Source: an uncultured Pelagibacteraceae bacterium (GTDB lineage Bacteria; Pseudomonadota; Alphaproteobacteria; Pelagibacterales; Pelagibacteraceae). From it: a stretch of DNA of 64,000 nt. Made by a program: the position numbers and the translations under genes. Shown here piece by piece: positions 23,602 through 31,556 of this stretch (its first letter is position 1; each line of letters begins with the position of its first letter). The notes under the pieces were generated by a model. The model ran no database searches. It had not been told where the DNA came from and saw only the letters and a program-made list of their open reading frames with translations. Location: positions 62,001 through 126,000 of the forward strand of contig CABYZT010000004.1 of the NCBI GenBank assembly GCA_902523515.1, in the 5' to 3' direction.

Positions 23602-23783
23602 TAATTATTTTTAATTTGTTCTTCACAAAATATTTTAGCTTCAGGAACTGTCATTGGTTTTTCTAGTTTTTGGCTACCAGCAATACATGCATCTATTGCT
23701 CTTTTTTGATTATGATCTTTAAAATTATAAATTACAAACATTCCAACAACTATAAAAAGAATTATTAAAACATTCTTTATCAT
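23601..23783 (-). CDS. 60-residue membrane-anchored small protein
   Basis: An N-terminal hydrophobic helix (KNVLIILFIVVGMFVIYNF) acts as anchor or signal, followed by a short charged periplasmic-side tail with two cysteines (ACIAGSQKL and KIFCEEQIKNN) 19 residues apart that could form a disulfide. One-base overlaps with both neighbours support it as a real gene. No family recognised. It lies between the crotonase-like and CoA-binding genes. Confidence 0.6.
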   Translation of the reverse strand: MIKNVLIILFIVVGMFVIYNFKDHNQKRAIDACIAGSQKLEKPMTVPEAKIFCEEQIKNN

Positions 23784-24562
23784 TATTTATTTTTCCATTT
23801 TGGTTTTCGTTTTTCGAGGAATGCAGAAATTCCTTCTTTTGCATCCATTGCCATCATATTAAGAGTCATCATTTTACTTGTATAAGCGTAAGCTTTACTT
23901 AATGGCATTTCTAATTGTTTGTAAAAAGCTTGCTTTCCAATTTTTATTGTTAAATTAGATTTAGAAGCAATTTTATTTGCTACTTTTAATACTTCGTTGT
24001 TTAATTTAAATTTTGAAAAATTATCATTTATCAACCCTATTTCTTTTGCATAATTTGCGTTGATAGGTTCTCCAGTTAATAACATTTTCATCATTGGTTT
24101 TCGATTTATCTTTCTACTGACAGCAACCATAGGTGTGCTACAAAACAGACCAATGTTTACTCCGGGTGTAGCAAATAATGCATCTTTAGTGCTGTATGCT
24201 AAATCACAACTTGCAACCAATTGACATCCAGCTGCAAACGCTGCTCCATGAACTTTGGCAATTACAGGTTTTCTACCTTCAACAATTTGAAGCATTACTT
24301 TTGAACAAAGATTAAATAATTTTAAATATTTATCTCTCTTTTTTAGACCTCTAACTTCTTTTAAATTATGACCTGCACTAAATCCTTTACCAGCACCCTC
24401 TAATATTATTACTTTAACTTTTTTATCAGCATCTAATTTTTTTAATGCCTTTAATAAATCTGAAAGATTTTTGAATGATAAAGAGTTATAAGTTTTTGGT
24501 TCATCAATAATAATTGATGAAACTTCGTTGTTATTTTTTTTAATTTTAATGTTACTAGTCAT
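23783..24562 (-). CDS. enoyl-CoA hydratase/isomerase family protein, ECHDC3-like
   Basis: 259 residues, a crotonase fold with oxyanion-hole segments FSAGHNLKEVRG and VHGAAFAAGCQLVASCDLAY. The two glutamates that hydratases use are absent: the first is Gln in GCQLVAS and the second is Gly in FATPGVNIGLF. This pattern (AAGCQLVASCD, TPGVNIGLFCSTP) matches the ECHDC3 subfamily, whose reaction is not well established. It lies 0-1 bp from the hydroxylase gene and the 60-residue ORF. A CoA-thioester step in catabolism of the operon's substrate is likely, hydration less so. Confidence 0.8.
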   Translation of the reverse strand: MTSNIKIKKNNNEVSSIIIDEPKTYNSLSFKNLSDLLKALKKLDADKKVKVIILEGAGKGFSAGHNLKEVRGLKKRDKYLKLFNLCSKVMLQIVEGRKPVIAKVHGAAFAAGCQLVASCDLAYSTKDALFATPGVNIGLFCSTPMVAVSRKINRKPMMKMLLTGEPINANYAKEIGLINDNFSKFKLNNEVLKVANKIASKSNLTIKIGKQAFYKQLEMPLSKAYAYTSKMMTLNMMAMDAKEGISAFLEKRKPKWKNK

Positions 24563-25414
24563 TTAATCAGTTAATCCATCGGATCTAGCCTGATTTCTTT
24601 CTATATGAATTGGTAAAACTTTACCATAAATAGCTTTGGAATGTTCTGGAGTATTTACTCTCCATGGATCTAAAACATAAGCTGGAATACACATATATCT
24701 TGATTTTTGACCTTCTACTTTTGTTACCCTATGCAAAGTAAATCTACCTTTAAATATTTGTAAATCTCCTGGCTCTAATTTTAATTTTCTTACTCTAGTT
24801 CTGTCTCCTGCTATAACTTTTTGAACTTCTTCGAAATTTTCATTTCCAGGTTCTCTAATATTTGGACAGTACTCAAATACTCCTCCCTTCTCAGGTTTTT
24901 GTATCATTAAACTAAGTGTAAATTCACAACTATCAAAATGCCATGGGAGTACTCCATCTGGTTTCATAACATTATATGCGTGACATGCTAAAGGGTCTGC
25001 CCATCTGTAAATAGGAGAAATACCTAAACAAGCAGATACAAATTTTAAAAGTTCCTCAGTTTCGTATAAATATTTCATTTCAGAATCTTTTGAAAAACAA
25101 TCTGAATTCAAATATCCATTGTATCTATTCATAAAAGTTCTTTTTGGATGATCTTTTGGTAATGAAGGATCGTCCTTTGCATACAAGTATGCATTTATAC
25201 TCTCTTTAGACATATAAACTTCGTCTATTTGTTTTTCTAACTCAGAATTCATTACCTTAAGTGATTTAGGCAAAATAAAATTTGGAATTGTTGAGCAACT
25301 ATGTTGATCAAGTTCTTCTTTACATTTTTTAACTAGATTTTTAATTATTGGTGAATTTAAATCGTGTATTGGATATTTTTTTAAATCTACAATAGTCTTT
25401 AGTCTATCGTTCAT
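24563..25414 (-). CDS. Fe(II)/2-oxoglutarate dioxygenase, HalD/BesE-like hydroxylase
   Basis: 283 residues. The double-stranded beta-helix core has the iron triad His159-x-Asp161 (LPWHFDSCEF) and His228 (LHRVTKVEG), with Arg239 in KSRYMC for 2-oxoglutarate. The N-terminus (VDLKKYPIHDLNSP), KGGVFEYCPNIR and LKLEPGDLQIFKGR recall the HalD/BesE group of amino-acid hydroxylases/halogenases. Asp161 is kept, so it should hydroxylate rather than halogenate. The likely substrate is a small amino acid or quaternary amine, consistent with the osmolyte operon. Flanked closely by the nucleotidyltransferase (6 bp) and ECHDC3-like gene. Confidence 0.7.
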   Translation of the reverse strand: MNDRLKTIVDLKKYPIHDLNSPIIKNLVKKCKEELDQHSCSTIPNFILPKSLKVMNSELEKQIDEVYMSKESINAYLYAKDDPSLPKDHPKRTFMNRYNGYLNSDCFSKDSEMKYLYETEELLKFVSACLGISPIYRWADPLACHAYNVMKPDGVLPWHFDSCEFTLSLMIQKPEKGGVFEYCPNIREPGNENFEEVQKVIAGDRTRVRKLKLEPGDLQIFKGRFTLHRVTKVEGQKSRYMCIPAYVLDPWRVNTPEHSKAIYGKVLPIHIERNQARSDGLTD

Positions 25415-25420
25415 TTAATT

Positions 25421-25795
25421 TTATTTTAACTTTCCCTCTTCTCTCATTTTTGCTCTTATTTTGGTTGCTGATATTTTTTGAGTTTCTTCATCCAAAACTA
25501 TTTCCTCAATCTTATATCCAACTCCCCTGCCATAACAAATATTTGTAATATTAGGTACTAACATAATTTTAAATTTTCCTTCAAATTCAGAATTTAATCT
25601 GTCTTCAATGTTTTTTTTTACTGTTTCAAAATCAAAAGGATTATCATCTACACCTTGTACATCTCTAATTTGAATACAAACTTGTCCAGTTTTTTTAATA
25701 ATTTCTTTGAACAAAGTATAATGTCCATCGTGAAAAGGTTGCCATCTTCCTAACATTTGTGCTGTTGGTTTTTTGTTATCCCATTGGTGTGTCAT
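25421..25795 (-). CDS. nucleotidyltransferase (cytidylyltransferase-like)
   Basis: 124 residues from the ATG at 25795, which forms an ATGA overlap with the kinase stop. An upstream ATG at 25828 would add 11 residues but lies inside the kinase. The HxGH-type site is seen in GRWQPFHDGH and the C-terminal ISATKIRAKM matches the ISxTKIR motif of NMN/phosphocholine-type nucleotidyltransferases. The domain links a nucleotide to a small phosphorylated molecule. With the P-loop kinase next door it could form a two-step activation (phosphorylate, then nucleotidylate). The substrate is not known. Confidence 0.75.
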   Translation of the reverse strand: MTHQWDNKKPTAQMLGRWQPFHDGHYTLFKEIIKKTGQVCIQIRDVQGVDDNPFDFETVKKNIEDRLNSEFEGKFKIMLVPNITNICYGRGVGYKIEEIVLDEETQKISATKIRAKMREEGKLK

Positions 25796-26202
25796 TTTTT
25801 TATCTCCTCTATTATTTTTGGTGCCCAACTTTTTGCATCCTGAGTTGTTACGTGAAAATCAAAATTTTTAGGATTAACAAACATTTGATTAGTGTCTTCA
25901 AATCTTCCTTCTTTGATTGTATCGACCCATACTCTAAAATCTGCTGGAAACAAACTTCTTGCCTCAGGAGTCGGTGCAATAAAATCAGCAATTACATAAT
26001 GACCTTCTGCTTTTAATTTTAAAGCAGCTTCAGCCATTCTTTTTGCTTGTCTTATTCTTCCCTCTTCAGAAAAATCCCAATCGTTTGCTGCTTTTCTCAC
26101 TTCGTCTGCATTCAGTCTTTTTGCATTTAAGAGTGGTGCCATTTCATCTGCTAGAGTTGTTTTGCCAGCTCCAGGCAAACCCATTACTAAAATAATTTTC
26201 AT
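25792..26202 (-). CDS. APS-kinase-like P-loop kinase
   Basis: 136 residues. Walker A GLPGAGKTT (about residues 8-16), then LNADEVR, DWDFSEEGRIRQAKRMAEAA and IADFIAPTPEARSLF follow the adenylylsulfate kinase (CysC) pattern, including the D-x-x-R and FIAPT elements. It is about 50-60 residues shorter than CysC and lacks the usual N-terminal extension. No sulfate-activation genes lie nearby, so a different acceptor (a small hydroxylated or amine metabolite) is possible. Overlaps the lyase gene by one base and the transferase by four. Confidence 0.75.
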   Translation of the reverse strand: MKIILVMGLPGAGKTTLADEMAPLLNAKRLNADEVRKAANDWDFSEEGRIRQAKRMAEAALKLKAEGHYVIADFIAPTPEARSLFPADFRVWVDTIKEGRFEDTNQMFVNPKNFDFHVTTQDAKSWAPKIIEEIKK

Positions 26203-27437
26203 TAAATATCTTCTAACGGATGATGGGACATTAATTCAAGTCCATTTTCACCTACAAGATACTGTTGTTCAAGTTTTACACCTTCTTTACCACCAACTTT
26301 ACCAATATAACTCTCAAGTGTAATTGTCATGTTCTTCTCAAAAGTTCCTCCTTCTTCTCCACCATCAGTTGGATATCTTATTTGAGGCCACTCATCACAC
26401 AACCCAATTCCATGAACCATACATGAATACCTATTTCCATAATACTCATCAGGCAAAACCCAAGATTTTTTTATAAATTCTTTAAAACTCATTCCTGGTT
26501 TTATTAATCTAAAGTTATGATCAATTTGATTTCTAGCCATTGAATATAGTTTTTTTTGCTCATCATTAAATTTATGCCCAACTACAAAGGCTCTTGATAT
26601 GTCAGCACAGTATCCATAGGGACCAACCATATCTGTATCAAAAGCAACAATTTCTCCTTGTTGCATAACTTTATTACTACTCTCTTGCATCCATGGATTT
26701 GTTCTTTCACCAGACGATAAAATCCTACACTCAATCCACTCACCTCCATTTTCAATATTCGTTTTATGTAAAATTGACCACAACTCATCTTCAGTCATTC
26801 CTGGCTTAAGATCTGATCTCATTTTTGATACACCCTTTTCTGCAACTTCTATTGCTGCTTTCATACAAGTCAATTCATCAGGTGATTTTATTACTCTTGC
26901 CTGTTCTAAAATCAATTTTGCATCTACAACTTCAATTCCTTCTTTATTTAAAGCTGTAACCGCAGGACCATTTAAAACATCGATTGCAATTTTTTTAGTT
27001 TTAAAATAATTTTTTGATAAATCTTTAACTTCATTTATCCATTTTAATAATTGATTGTCTGCTTGATCTCCATTGCTAAAATAATCCCATGTAATTGCTG
27101 GTCTTATTTCATCAATTAGATTTAAATGCTTCGATAATATTTCACAATTAAAATACTCATAAAGAATAGTTGGTCCATTGACCGGTACAAAACAATATCT
27201 TGTTAAATTATGCATATTATAGACACTCATGTTCACAGTATCTAAAGCATAACGAACATTCACTGGATCAAATAGAATACAAGCTTCTAAATTGTTTTTT
27301 ACTAATTCTTTTCTAACCCTGTCTAAACGATATGATCTTAATTTATCAAAATCAATCTCGTCTTCTCTTAATCTTTTTTTAGTAATAAAATTTTGTCTTG
27401 GTTTTATCTCGGGAGCTATTTTTCTACTAAATCTCAT
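26202..27437 (-). CDS. dddP: DMSP lyase DddP, M24 metallopeptidase fold
   Basis: 411 residues with creatinase-like N-terminal domain and pita-bread C-terminal domain. Metal ligands are Asp267, Asp269, Asp279, His342, Glu375 and Glu390, whose spacing matches characterised DddP almost exactly. The proposed catalytic pair is also present: Asp348 in GIGLCDEW and Tyr337 in NRYSCM. Segments FDPVNVRYALDTVNM and GGEWIECRILSSGERTNPW are DddP-type, not Xaa-Pro peptidase. It would cleave DMSP to acrylate and DMS. Its one-base overlap with the kinase and 4-bp overlap with the methyltransferase place it within the C1 operon. Activity should be checked, as M24 paralogues exist. Confidence 0.75.
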   Translation of the reverse strand: MRFSRKIAPEIKPRQNFITKKRLREDEIDFDKLRSYRLDRVRKELVKNNLEACILFDPVNVRYALDTVNMSVYNMHNLTRYCFVPVNGPTILYEYFNCEILSKHLNLIDEIRPAITWDYFSNGDQADNQLLKWINEVKDLSKNYFKTKKIAIDVLNGPAVTALNKEGIEVVDAKLILEQARVIKSPDELTCMKAAIEVAEKGVSKMRSDLKPGMTEDELWSILHKTNIENGGEWIECRILSSGERTNPWMQESSNKVMQQGEIVAFDTDMVGPYGYCADISRAFVVGHKFNDEQKKLYSMARNQIDHNFRLIKPGMSFKEFIKKSWVLPDEYYGNRYSCMVHGIGLCDEWPQIRYPTDGGEEGGTFEKNMTITLESYIGKVGGKEGVKLEQQYLVGENGLELMSHHPLEDI

Positions 27438-30473: not shown

Positions 30474-31556
30474 TTATAACCTTTCTTTTTCAAAATTTAC
30501 AATATTGTCTTCAAAATAAATATTTTTTAATTTGGACAATCTCTTTTGAAGAATATTTATATTTTTTTTAGTAAATGAAACTTTTTTTTGCTCTATTTCA
30601 GAAACTTGTGCCACATAGTTAATTGCATTCCAGACAGAAAAAATATTATTTAGTGAGAATTCCTTCAAATTGATAGATAAATTATTGAAAGTATATTTTA
30701 GTTTTTCTAGTTTTATTTTAAATTTATCTTTTTCTATATTTTTTTTTATTTGAGATATTAATTTTTTGGGTTCTGAATTTTTATAAAAACCATTCCTTGG
30801 ATAGTAATATTTGAGAAATGATCCTGTAAAATCCTTTCCTGATGAGTATATAAGGAACATTTTTCCTTTAAAATTTAGCAAAGATAAAAGAGGTTTAATA
30901 ACATTTTTTACAGTCTGAGTTAAAGGAGACCGAAGCTTAAAACATTGAGATGCAATAATAAAATCATATTTTTTTGGAATTTCACTTATATTTCTGGGTA
31001 TAAAGTCTTTTAATTTTTTTTTTTGATCTTTTCTGTAAATAGTCAAAAAAATTTTTGACTTGGGTTTAATTGAACCATTTTTGTTATTAAAAGATAATTT
31101 CCAATTTTTTCTAATATAAGGACTTAAACTCATTAAGATCTTAGTAAAATCAATACCTTTTTTTCCAACTAATTCTAATTTTTCAAATTTTACATTGTCA
31201 GATGTAGAGTTATTTAGATCTTTATAGCTACAATTAGTAATATTAAAAATTAAAGTTTTATGTTCAGCAAATCTATCCCCTAAAAAACTTAGAAGCACAT
31301 TAATATCATCGATACTTATTTCTTTACCTACAATAAATATAGGTTTATTTGGCAGATATTTATGCAGGCCTGACAAAAAAGTAGATATAATTGTTCCCTC
31401 ACCAGTACCCGCGTCTAATACGTTAAAAATTGGTGACCGAGTACTGATTTTTTCTATTTTTTTAAATAAATAAAAAGCAATTTTTGATTTTTCATTAGTT
31501 GAGTTTACAAATGATAAATATTTGTCTCTAGAATCAAAAAAAGTTTTTCTCTTCAT
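30474..31556 (-). CDS. methyltransferase-like protein of unknown function, 360 residues
   Basis: A Rossmann SAM-type glycine motif VLDAGTGEGTIISTF lies at residues 46-60, and VGKEISIDDIN follows as a possible motif II. A conserved-looking FFDSRDKYLSFVNSTNEKSKIAFYLF helix precedes. The rest is Lys/Asn-rich, with more lysine than its neighbours, and I do not recognise a family. It lies between bhmT (8 bp gap) and the dehydrogenase (8 bp gap). An N- or S-methyltransferase of a small acceptor is plausible. Confidence 0.6.
   Translation of the reverse strand: MKRKTFFDSRDKYLSFVNSTNEKSKIAFYLFKKIEKISTRSPIFNVLDAGTGEGTIISTFLSGLHKYLPNKPIFIVGKEISIDDINVLLSFLGDRFAEHKTLIFNITNCSYKDLNNSTSDNVKFEKLELVGKKGIDFTKILMSLSPYIRKNWKLSFNNKNGSIKPKSKIFLTIYRKDQKKKLKDFIPRNISEIPKKYDFIIASQCFKLRSPLTQTVKNVIKPLLSLLNFKGKMFLIYSSGKDFTGSFLKYYYPRNGFYKNSEPKKLISQIKKNIEKDKFKIKLEKLKYTFNNLSINLKEFSLNNIFSVWNAINYVAQVSEIEQKKVSFTKKNINILQKRLSKLKNIYFEDNIVNFEKERL

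Follow-up and report, generated by a model that had tools for sequence, protein, structure and literature searches.

A kinase-nucleotidyltransferase gene pair of SAR11 bacteria and phages that looks like an unrecognised minimal sulfate-to-PAPS enzyme

In the genome of an uncultured Pelagibacteraceae bacterium of the SAR11 group, two adjacent genes look like an unrecognised minimal enzyme for converting sulfate into PAPS. They lie on the reverse strand at positions 25421-26202 of a stretch of 64,000 nucleotides, referred to here as the window, which belongs to contig 4 of a 1.2 Mb genome that is 89.6% complete. The pair, consisting of a short APS-kinase-like protein and an HxGH nucleotidyltransferase, is probably a minimal two-component PAPS synthase. 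This reading is built on the families of both proteins, the fold of the kinase in a homologue, the conserved motifs, the pairing and fusion of the two genes, and their genomic contexts, from which sulfate as the acceptor, the two reactions and their direction, and the existence of a sulfated target are predicted. In the proposed route, the nucleotidyltransferase would convert ATP and sulfate into APS and PPi, the kinase would convert APS and ATP into PAPS and ADP, and the PAPS would be used by sulfotransferases.

To our knowledge, ATP sulfurylases are of two kinds, Sat and CysDN. More tentatively, and with a chance that we place somewhat below even, the nucleotidyltransferase may represent a third, separate class of about 120 residues with an NMNAT-like sequence, which SAR11 would employ in both directions and which phages would carry as part of a mobile PAPS module beside sulfotransferases and 2-oxoglutarate (2OG) oxygenases, sulfating in hosts without sulfate activation. 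Literature searches of partial coverage returned no paper on a PAPS synthase of this kind in SAR11 or phages and none describing a new family of ATP sulfurylases, in agreement with the remark in an initial annotation of the window that no SAR11 pathway of this shape had been described.

Genes of the locus and their predicted identities

The kinase gene (25792..26202, reverse strand), the proposed APS kinase of the pair, encodes 136 residues with the Walker A motif GLPGAGKT at 26158-26181. The nucleotidyltransferase gene (25421..25795, reverse strand), the proposed minimal sulfate adenylyltransferase, encodes 124 residues with the motif GRWQPFHDGH, of which HDGH lies at 25721-25732, and its ATG overlaps the kinase TGA as ATGA. 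The gene of a HalD-like Fe(II)/2OG enzyme of the hydroxylase type (24563..25414, reverse strand; 283 residues; HFD at 24932-24940), regarded here as an optional passenger outside the pair, starts 6 bp further on. The three reading frames are considered real rather than due to chance because all of them are conserved in relatives. The placement, order, and tight spacing of the trio in the initial annotation were confirmed from the coordinates, and its family assignments (APS-kinase-like, HxGH nucleotidyltransferase, HalD-like) were borne out by the cut-offs of PF01583, PF01467, and PF23169. Its description of the flanks held in part: the crotonase is indeed an ECHDC3-like enoyl-CoA hydratase (23783..24562, reverse strand; PRK08139, 350.2 bits, cut-off 313), whereas the upstream M24-family DddP-like protein (26202..27437, reverse strand; PF00557, 117.1 bits), given here as context only, is not a safe DddP, because it scored 352.1 bits against the DddP equivalog NF043017, whose cut-off is 600. 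The other neighbours comprise a methyltransferase, a DAO+GCV_T enzyme, a homocysteine S-methyltransferase-family protein, and a Rieske oxygenase.

The kinase is best read as a short APS kinase, a prediction from sequence and modelling under which APS would be the molecule phosphorylated. It scored 42.6 bits against APS_kinase (PF01583, cut-off 21.1), and the best solved match of its profile was the adenylyl-sulfate kinase 2yvu (E 2.4e-13); against the apsK equivalog TIGR00455 it reached 34.7 bits, under the cut-off of 138.7. In the model of a fused phage homologue (L187, pLDDT 92.8), the kinase half, here standing in for the window protein, superposed on APS kinases with a Z score of 18.7 and an rmsd of 2.0 over 139 residues, with gluconate kinase next at Z 15.6; human PAPS synthetase 1 aligned over both halves of L187, but at 16 A rmsd. 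The positions of the adenylylsulfate site are those that we presume from fungal APS kinase. D33, R36, F44, R55, F74, and P77 are identical in all 126 aligned kinase copies and R49 is present in 124, as is Gln52, at a position where the known APS site has Asn. The likeness to the APS kinase CysC (PF01583) extends over the family score, the fold, and the conserved D33, R36, F44, R49, F74, and P77, while the window kinase differs in its length of 136 residues, in Gln52, in its score under the apsK cut-off, and in the absence of the long C-terminal lid of known APS kinases, the last two of which count against the APS-kinase reading.

The nucleotidyltransferase exceeded the cut-off of the CTP_transf_like family (PF01467, 22.4 bits, cut-off 21). 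Across 134-135 copies, its motifs GRxQPxHxGH, NP, PN, YGRxVGY, and ISATxxR show little or no variation, with HxGH and R114 found in every aligned copy. It is likely an ATP-using adenylyltransferase, as predicted from its being nearest in sequence to the archaeal NMN adenylyltransferases (NMNAT/NadM), of which 1f9a was the best solved match of its profile (E 2.4e-8). The two are alike in the GRxQPxHxGH, NPF, and ISxTxxR regions, whereas the window enzyme has 124 rather than about 170 residues and a YGRxVGY motif of its own, and lies far under the cut-off of the NMN adenylyltransferase model TIGR01527 (24.2 bits against 181.2). In addition, the middle of the NMN adenylyltransferase fold is absent from the alignment, and the L187 model, in which the middle strands are missing, shows three strands in the nucleotidyltransferase half; the kinase half took up all places in the fold search of this fused model, so that the likeness of the nucleotidyltransferase rests on sequence. 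Sat is likewise an HxxH-type nucleotidyltransferase. Sat (PF01747) and CysDN carry out the same reaction as the one proposed, but the window enzyme has neither a PF01747 match nor the Sat motif Q-x-R-N-P-x-H-x-x-H, and CysN, a GTPase, has no relationship to it. That the acceptor would be sulfate is suggested by the genomic contexts described below.

The two genes are a near-inseparable pair. Within the order, 229 of 297 genomes have the nucleotidyltransferase and 214 gave kinase matches, of which eight were weak (E 1e-5 to 1e-6), two of them within frames of 627-639 aa; since all eight occur in genomes with CysN over its cut-off, the genuine kinase count is about 206. Among the 80 nearest SAR11 loci (best 80 of at least 581), 74 have the two genes side by side, and a gene of the c25 family, in the one case tested an autotransporter, stands between them in 9 of 60 SAR11 stretches. 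Moreover, the two are fused in five SAR11 genomes of the genera g5 and g6 (L054-L058, 255-281 aa) and in one other alphaproteobacterium (G666, 272 aa). A phylum-wide search matched 20 of 398 genomes, including that of the window; G666 reached 142.6 bits, and the other 18 matches were weak (21 to 41 bits, in frames of 341-417 aa) and are taken as NMNAT/Nudix-type proteins, so that beyond SAR11 only G666 looks like a true homologue by sequence. The view in the initial annotation that kinase and nucleotidyltransferase belong together is supported by this adjacency and fusion.

Relatives of the pair are also encoded in at least 594 viral stretches. In the best 80 of these, one fused protein was found in 23 loci and both halves were recognised in 71. 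The fused query aligned unbroken over 95-96% in five phage isolates (three Stenotrophomonas phages, one Xanthomonas phage, and Clavibacter phage 33), and in each of the two isolates inspected one annotated gene covers both halves. The kinase half comes first in the fused copies examined from the g5/g6 SAR11 genomes, and the PHROGs entry corresponding to the fusion, phrog_10255, is named kinase. Human PAPSS1/2 and the fusions of APS kinase with Sat offer a known counterpart, sharing the proposed chemistry, the fusion, the kinase-first order (as in PAPSS1), and a kinase half that superposes. PAPSS1, however, has about 600 residues compared with about 260 for the fused pair, and its second half is a PF01747 sulfurylase, whereas that of the fused pair is a short NMNAT-like HxGH domain; the window pair itself is split into two genes.

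Sulfotransferase, Sat, and APS-reductase contexts

In viruses, a sulfotransferase lies near the pair in 26 of the best 80 of at least 594 loci, directly adjacent in 20, as found with a model built from that same family, of which the member tested scored 55.4 bits against PF00685. Counting against a general association, 23 of these 26 loci fall in one kinase clade of 27; outside it, the sulfotransferase is adjacent in L196 and stands 5 and 4 genes away in L230 and L262, respectively, and the largest viral kinase clade (39 members) shows no sulfotransferase within the flanks. Conversely, among the best 80 of at least 588 viral sulfotransferase loci, the kinase is present in 20 (directly adjacent in 19) and was not found within the stretch read in the remaining 60, a count that is not independent of the first because at least nine contigs are shared with the first viral set. 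It is as though the pair had been placed next to the viral sulfotransferase as an optional insert. Phage Suzuki carries the fused gene, and 50,000 of its 56,042 bases revealed no recognisable sulfotransferase. The viral loci of the pair often contain 2OG-Fe oxygenases as well. Sulfotransferases were found in the genomes of OM43 phages by a 2023 study, which describes their role as unclear (PMC10580990).

Sulfotransferases also accompany the pair in SAR11, for which a 2007 study lists genes annotated as sulfotransferases (PMC2217521). In a polysaccharide-cluster locus (L056), the gene 2 bp beyond the fused one encodes a Sulfotransfer_1 protein (26.2 bits, cut-off 22), and L063 has a sulfotransferase-like gene three genes from the kinase, with 19.4 bits against a cut-off of 27 that it does not reach. 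Across 80 genomes hand-chosen from the 297 to span presence, absence, and all families, and hence not random, the presence of the kinase and that of a sulfotransferase were unassociated (34/47 versus 20/33, p 0.33), and 8 of the 54 sulfotransferase-positive genomes were without an APS-kinase-family gene, so that the presence of the pair does not follow from a need for PAPS. The window genome itself has four sulfotransferase-like genes, three of which encode proteins of 281-283 aa with YPKSGNT (the two tested were both over the Sulfotransfer_1 cut-off), while the fourth is of the TPR type and over the Sulfotransfer_3 cut-off. The window kinase is the sole APS-kinase-family match in this genome, in which the PF01747 search found no Sat and the best CysN match reached 107 bits against a cut-off of 336.1, absences that are not final at a completeness below 90%. 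A CysQ-like gene near aprMBA scored 178.4 bits on an end-cut piece, under the cut-off of 228.8. The initial annotation had stated that no sulfate-assimilation or LPS genes are near, which is correct for the window and fails for its relatives, where sulfotransferases, aprMBA, and polysaccharide genes are found.

In some SAR11 polysaccharide clusters, Sat occupies a place parallel to that of the pair. PF01747 ATP sulfurylases occur in 5 of the 80 chosen genomes; Sat lies beside a pyruvate-kinase-like gene in L290, L291, and L292, it is preceded by an APS-kinase-family gene of 153-154 aa in L290 and L291, and it is followed by a sulfotransferase and a TauE gene in L291. The fused pair comes directly after another pyruvate-kinase-like gene in L057 and L058, with a TauE gene also near in L057. 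Because the two pyruvate-kinase-like kinds share only about 26-33% identity, these contexts are a parallel and not synteny. One genome (G279) carries Sat as well as the fused pair, which counts against the PAPS reading.

A further context is provided by the APS reductase genes. Of the 21 genomes of the genus g5 that carry the nucleotidyltransferase, 17 gave no kinase match, and in the three g5 loci read the nucleotidyltransferase directly precedes aprM-aprB-aprA (aprA, aprB, and xsc were identified by curated models, and the TauE-like, SuyAB-like, and AprM labels were given by eye). Here the enzyme would probably work backwards, converting the APS formed from sulfite by AprBA into ATP and sulfate. 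In the family f2, the pair converges on aprA in nine loci. Among the 35 f2 genomes of the chosen 80, the 28 with the nucleotidyltransferase were all AprA-positive and had no CysN over the cut-off, while the 7 without it had CysN and no AprA (Fisher p 1.5e-7, a value that ignores relatedness). In the main genus, AprA was present in 11 of 12 chosen genomes with the nucleotidyltransferase and in 12 of 12 without it, and a HIT-family gene precedes aprM in the three main-genus apr loci read. In these AprA counts over the chosen genomes, G095 and G129 were scored as positive from matching contig-end fragments. The candidate role of the nucleotidyltransferase as the general APS-clearing enzyme of SAR11 is weakened, as main-genus genomes without it keep aprMBA.

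The Fe/2OG gene and the rival readings

The Fe(II)/2OG enzyme scored 46.5 bits against the HalD family of carrier-free amino-acid halogenases (PF23169, cut-off 26). Its metal triad H159-x-D161...H228, which the initial annotation had called intact, is present in the window protein, and H159, D161, H228, and R239 are invariant in 14 relatives. Halogenases of the HalD type have H-x-G/A in place of H-x-D. Since the window enzyme and its 14 relatives have H159-F-D161 and not the halogenase site, it is assigned to the hydroxylase type. As a single sequence it matched HalD 7u6h (E 0.0047), while a profile search of solved structures with the 14 close relatives gave nothing up to E 1, and the model built from these relatives had a pLDDT of 39.9.

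The distribution of this gene is central to the question of whether all three genes serve one pathway, as the initial annotation had supposed in suggesting that an osmolyte-related substrate is hydroxylated, phosphorylated, and nucleotidylated. The tight spacing in the window, the methyl-group and Rieske genes around it, and the position of the 2OG gene directly after the nucleotidyltransferase in all 45 loci that carry it (best 80 of at least 581 SAR11 loci) are consistent with such a trio. However, the 2OG enzyme is present in only 73 of the 297 genomes, compared with 229 for the nucleotidyltransferase, and 18 of the 73 carriers have it at a site away from the pair, as counted by eye from coordinates and loci, with three adjacent cases judged from the loci L049 and L075 or from the kinase distance (G247). 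Stray copies stand beside genes for 3-hydroxyacid dehydrogenase-like, SDR, class II aldolase, or FrhB-like proteins (e.g., L038, L042, L051). When co-occurrence was followed across relatives, a check that the initial annotation had proposed, the outcome that it had named as refuting was reached for the trio but not for the pair. In sixty stretches from other SAR11 genomes, the recurring main-genus core consists of the kinase, the nucleotidyltransferase, the hydratase, and a CoA-binding protein, the hydratase coming after the pair, with or without insertions in between, in most of the main-genus loci read, and the 2OG enzyme, the M24 protein, the methyltransferase, and the DAO+GCV_T enzyme vary around it. 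The three genes probably do not form one pathway, and the Fe/2OG enzyme is probably a separate passenger belonging to a catabolic gene set; a trio acting on one substrate in osmolyte metabolism was set aside on this distribution as highly improbable. The related suggestion of a CDP- or ADP-linked osmolyte also gives way, as sulfate activation is a better fit to relatives that lie beside sulfotransferases, aprMBA, and polysaccharide genes.

Two other readings concern the pair itself. Because the nucleotidyltransferase resembles NMNAT, to which it is nearest in sequence, NadR-like NAD salvage was considered, in which the kinase would act on nicotinamide riboside, the nucleotidyltransferase would adenylate NMN, and phages would thereby restore NAD; the kinase also matches NadR weakly (14 bits, E 0.022), which points the same way. 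Nevertheless, this is quite unlikely given that the kinase half is best matched by APS kinases, that the neighbours are sulfotransferases and aprMBA, and that the nucleotidyltransferase falls far short of the NMN adenylyltransferase model and is missing the middle of its fold in the alignment. It is also unlikely, if slightly easier to entertain, that the pair makes another nucleotide-linked compound, either by joining a phosphorylated small molecule to AMP or CMP for surface polymers or through a kinase that adds a 3'-phosphate. APS-kinase-like kinases with other nucleotide substrates do exist, such as the CDP-phosphoramidate kinase of Campylobacter, which adds a 3'-phosphate, and several fused copies lie in polysaccharide clusters, with the L055 copy standing before a GmhA-like SIS protein and the L058 copy before a CDP-glycerol transferase-family protein; such a product would, however, leave the aprMBA contexts and the directly adjacent sulfotransferases unexplained. 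Heptose activation, prompted by the GmhA-like protein after the fused L055 gene, was dropped as a single case.

Significance of a proposed minimal PAPS synthase

SAR11 bacteria are among the most abundant on Earth, and their sulfate pathways are called incomplete in a 2025 study (PMC12636525). If the pair is a PAPS synthase as proposed, a third ATP sulfurylase of 124 residues would fill this gap in sulfate activation, and the fused form would constitute a one-protein source of PAPS. A gene found in at least 594 viral stretches would thereby receive a name, and what SAR11 bacteria and phages sulfate would become a testable question.

Genes interrupting and adjoining the pair

The kinase and the nucleotidyltransferase are separated in 9 of 60 SAR11 loci (L040, L046, L048, L049, L052, L074, L075, L083 and L085) by genes of family c25, which encode proteins of about 710-820 aa and carry an autotransporter beta-domain in the one member tested. 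At locus L064 of genome G174, the kinase match (contig 6:43224-43488) is split into two separate pieces followed by an intact nucleotidyltransferase, and the kinase gene reads as if broken. A nucleotidyltransferase of the SAR11 type, 95% identical, is also found on a contig filed under a Flavobacterium MAG (L153, JALRGT010000067.1), which is probably mis-binned SAR11 DNA.

A divergent second HalD-like 2OG enzyme, with 49-53% identity, accompanies the first copy in five genomes, being located at L042:9428-10270 and in G116, G184, G190 and G028, the last of which carries its HalD-like copies in tandem. Several loci of the main SAR11 genus contain, between the hydratase and a CoA-binding gene, an SBP56-family gene (L078:5112-6485; family c38 in other loci), which may encode a methanethiol oxidase. 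Pyruvate-kinase-like genes directly adjoin the fused pair (L057:5530-6495, L058:5034-6014) as well as APS kinase-Sat genes (L290:5933-7279, L291:7981-9330, L292:8062-9408). The same gene run as the pair includes a 360-aa protein (30474-31556 of the window), for which no Pfam match was obtained up to E 1e-5.

The HIT-family gene at the APS reductase locus

In the main SAR11 genus, the APS reductase genes aprM-aprB-aprA are preceded by a HIT-family gene of 131-132 aa (L296:7070-7468 in G000, the genome of the window; L297:7538-7936 in G003; L298:11961-12356 in G030); the last of these genomes is devoid of the nucleotidyltransferase. The known APS:phosphate adenylyltransferase is a member of the HIT/GalT superfamily, and the gene preceding aprM could encode such an enzyme.

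The viral arrangement

In nine viral loci (L198-L201, L206, L208, L218, L242 and L255), as many as three genes of the 2OG-Fe oxygenase type come after the kinase and nucleotidyltransferase, together with a large gene that is probably structural; a whole or partial sulfotransferase also lies within the stretch in seven of these loci. The whole arrangement resembles a modification cassette.
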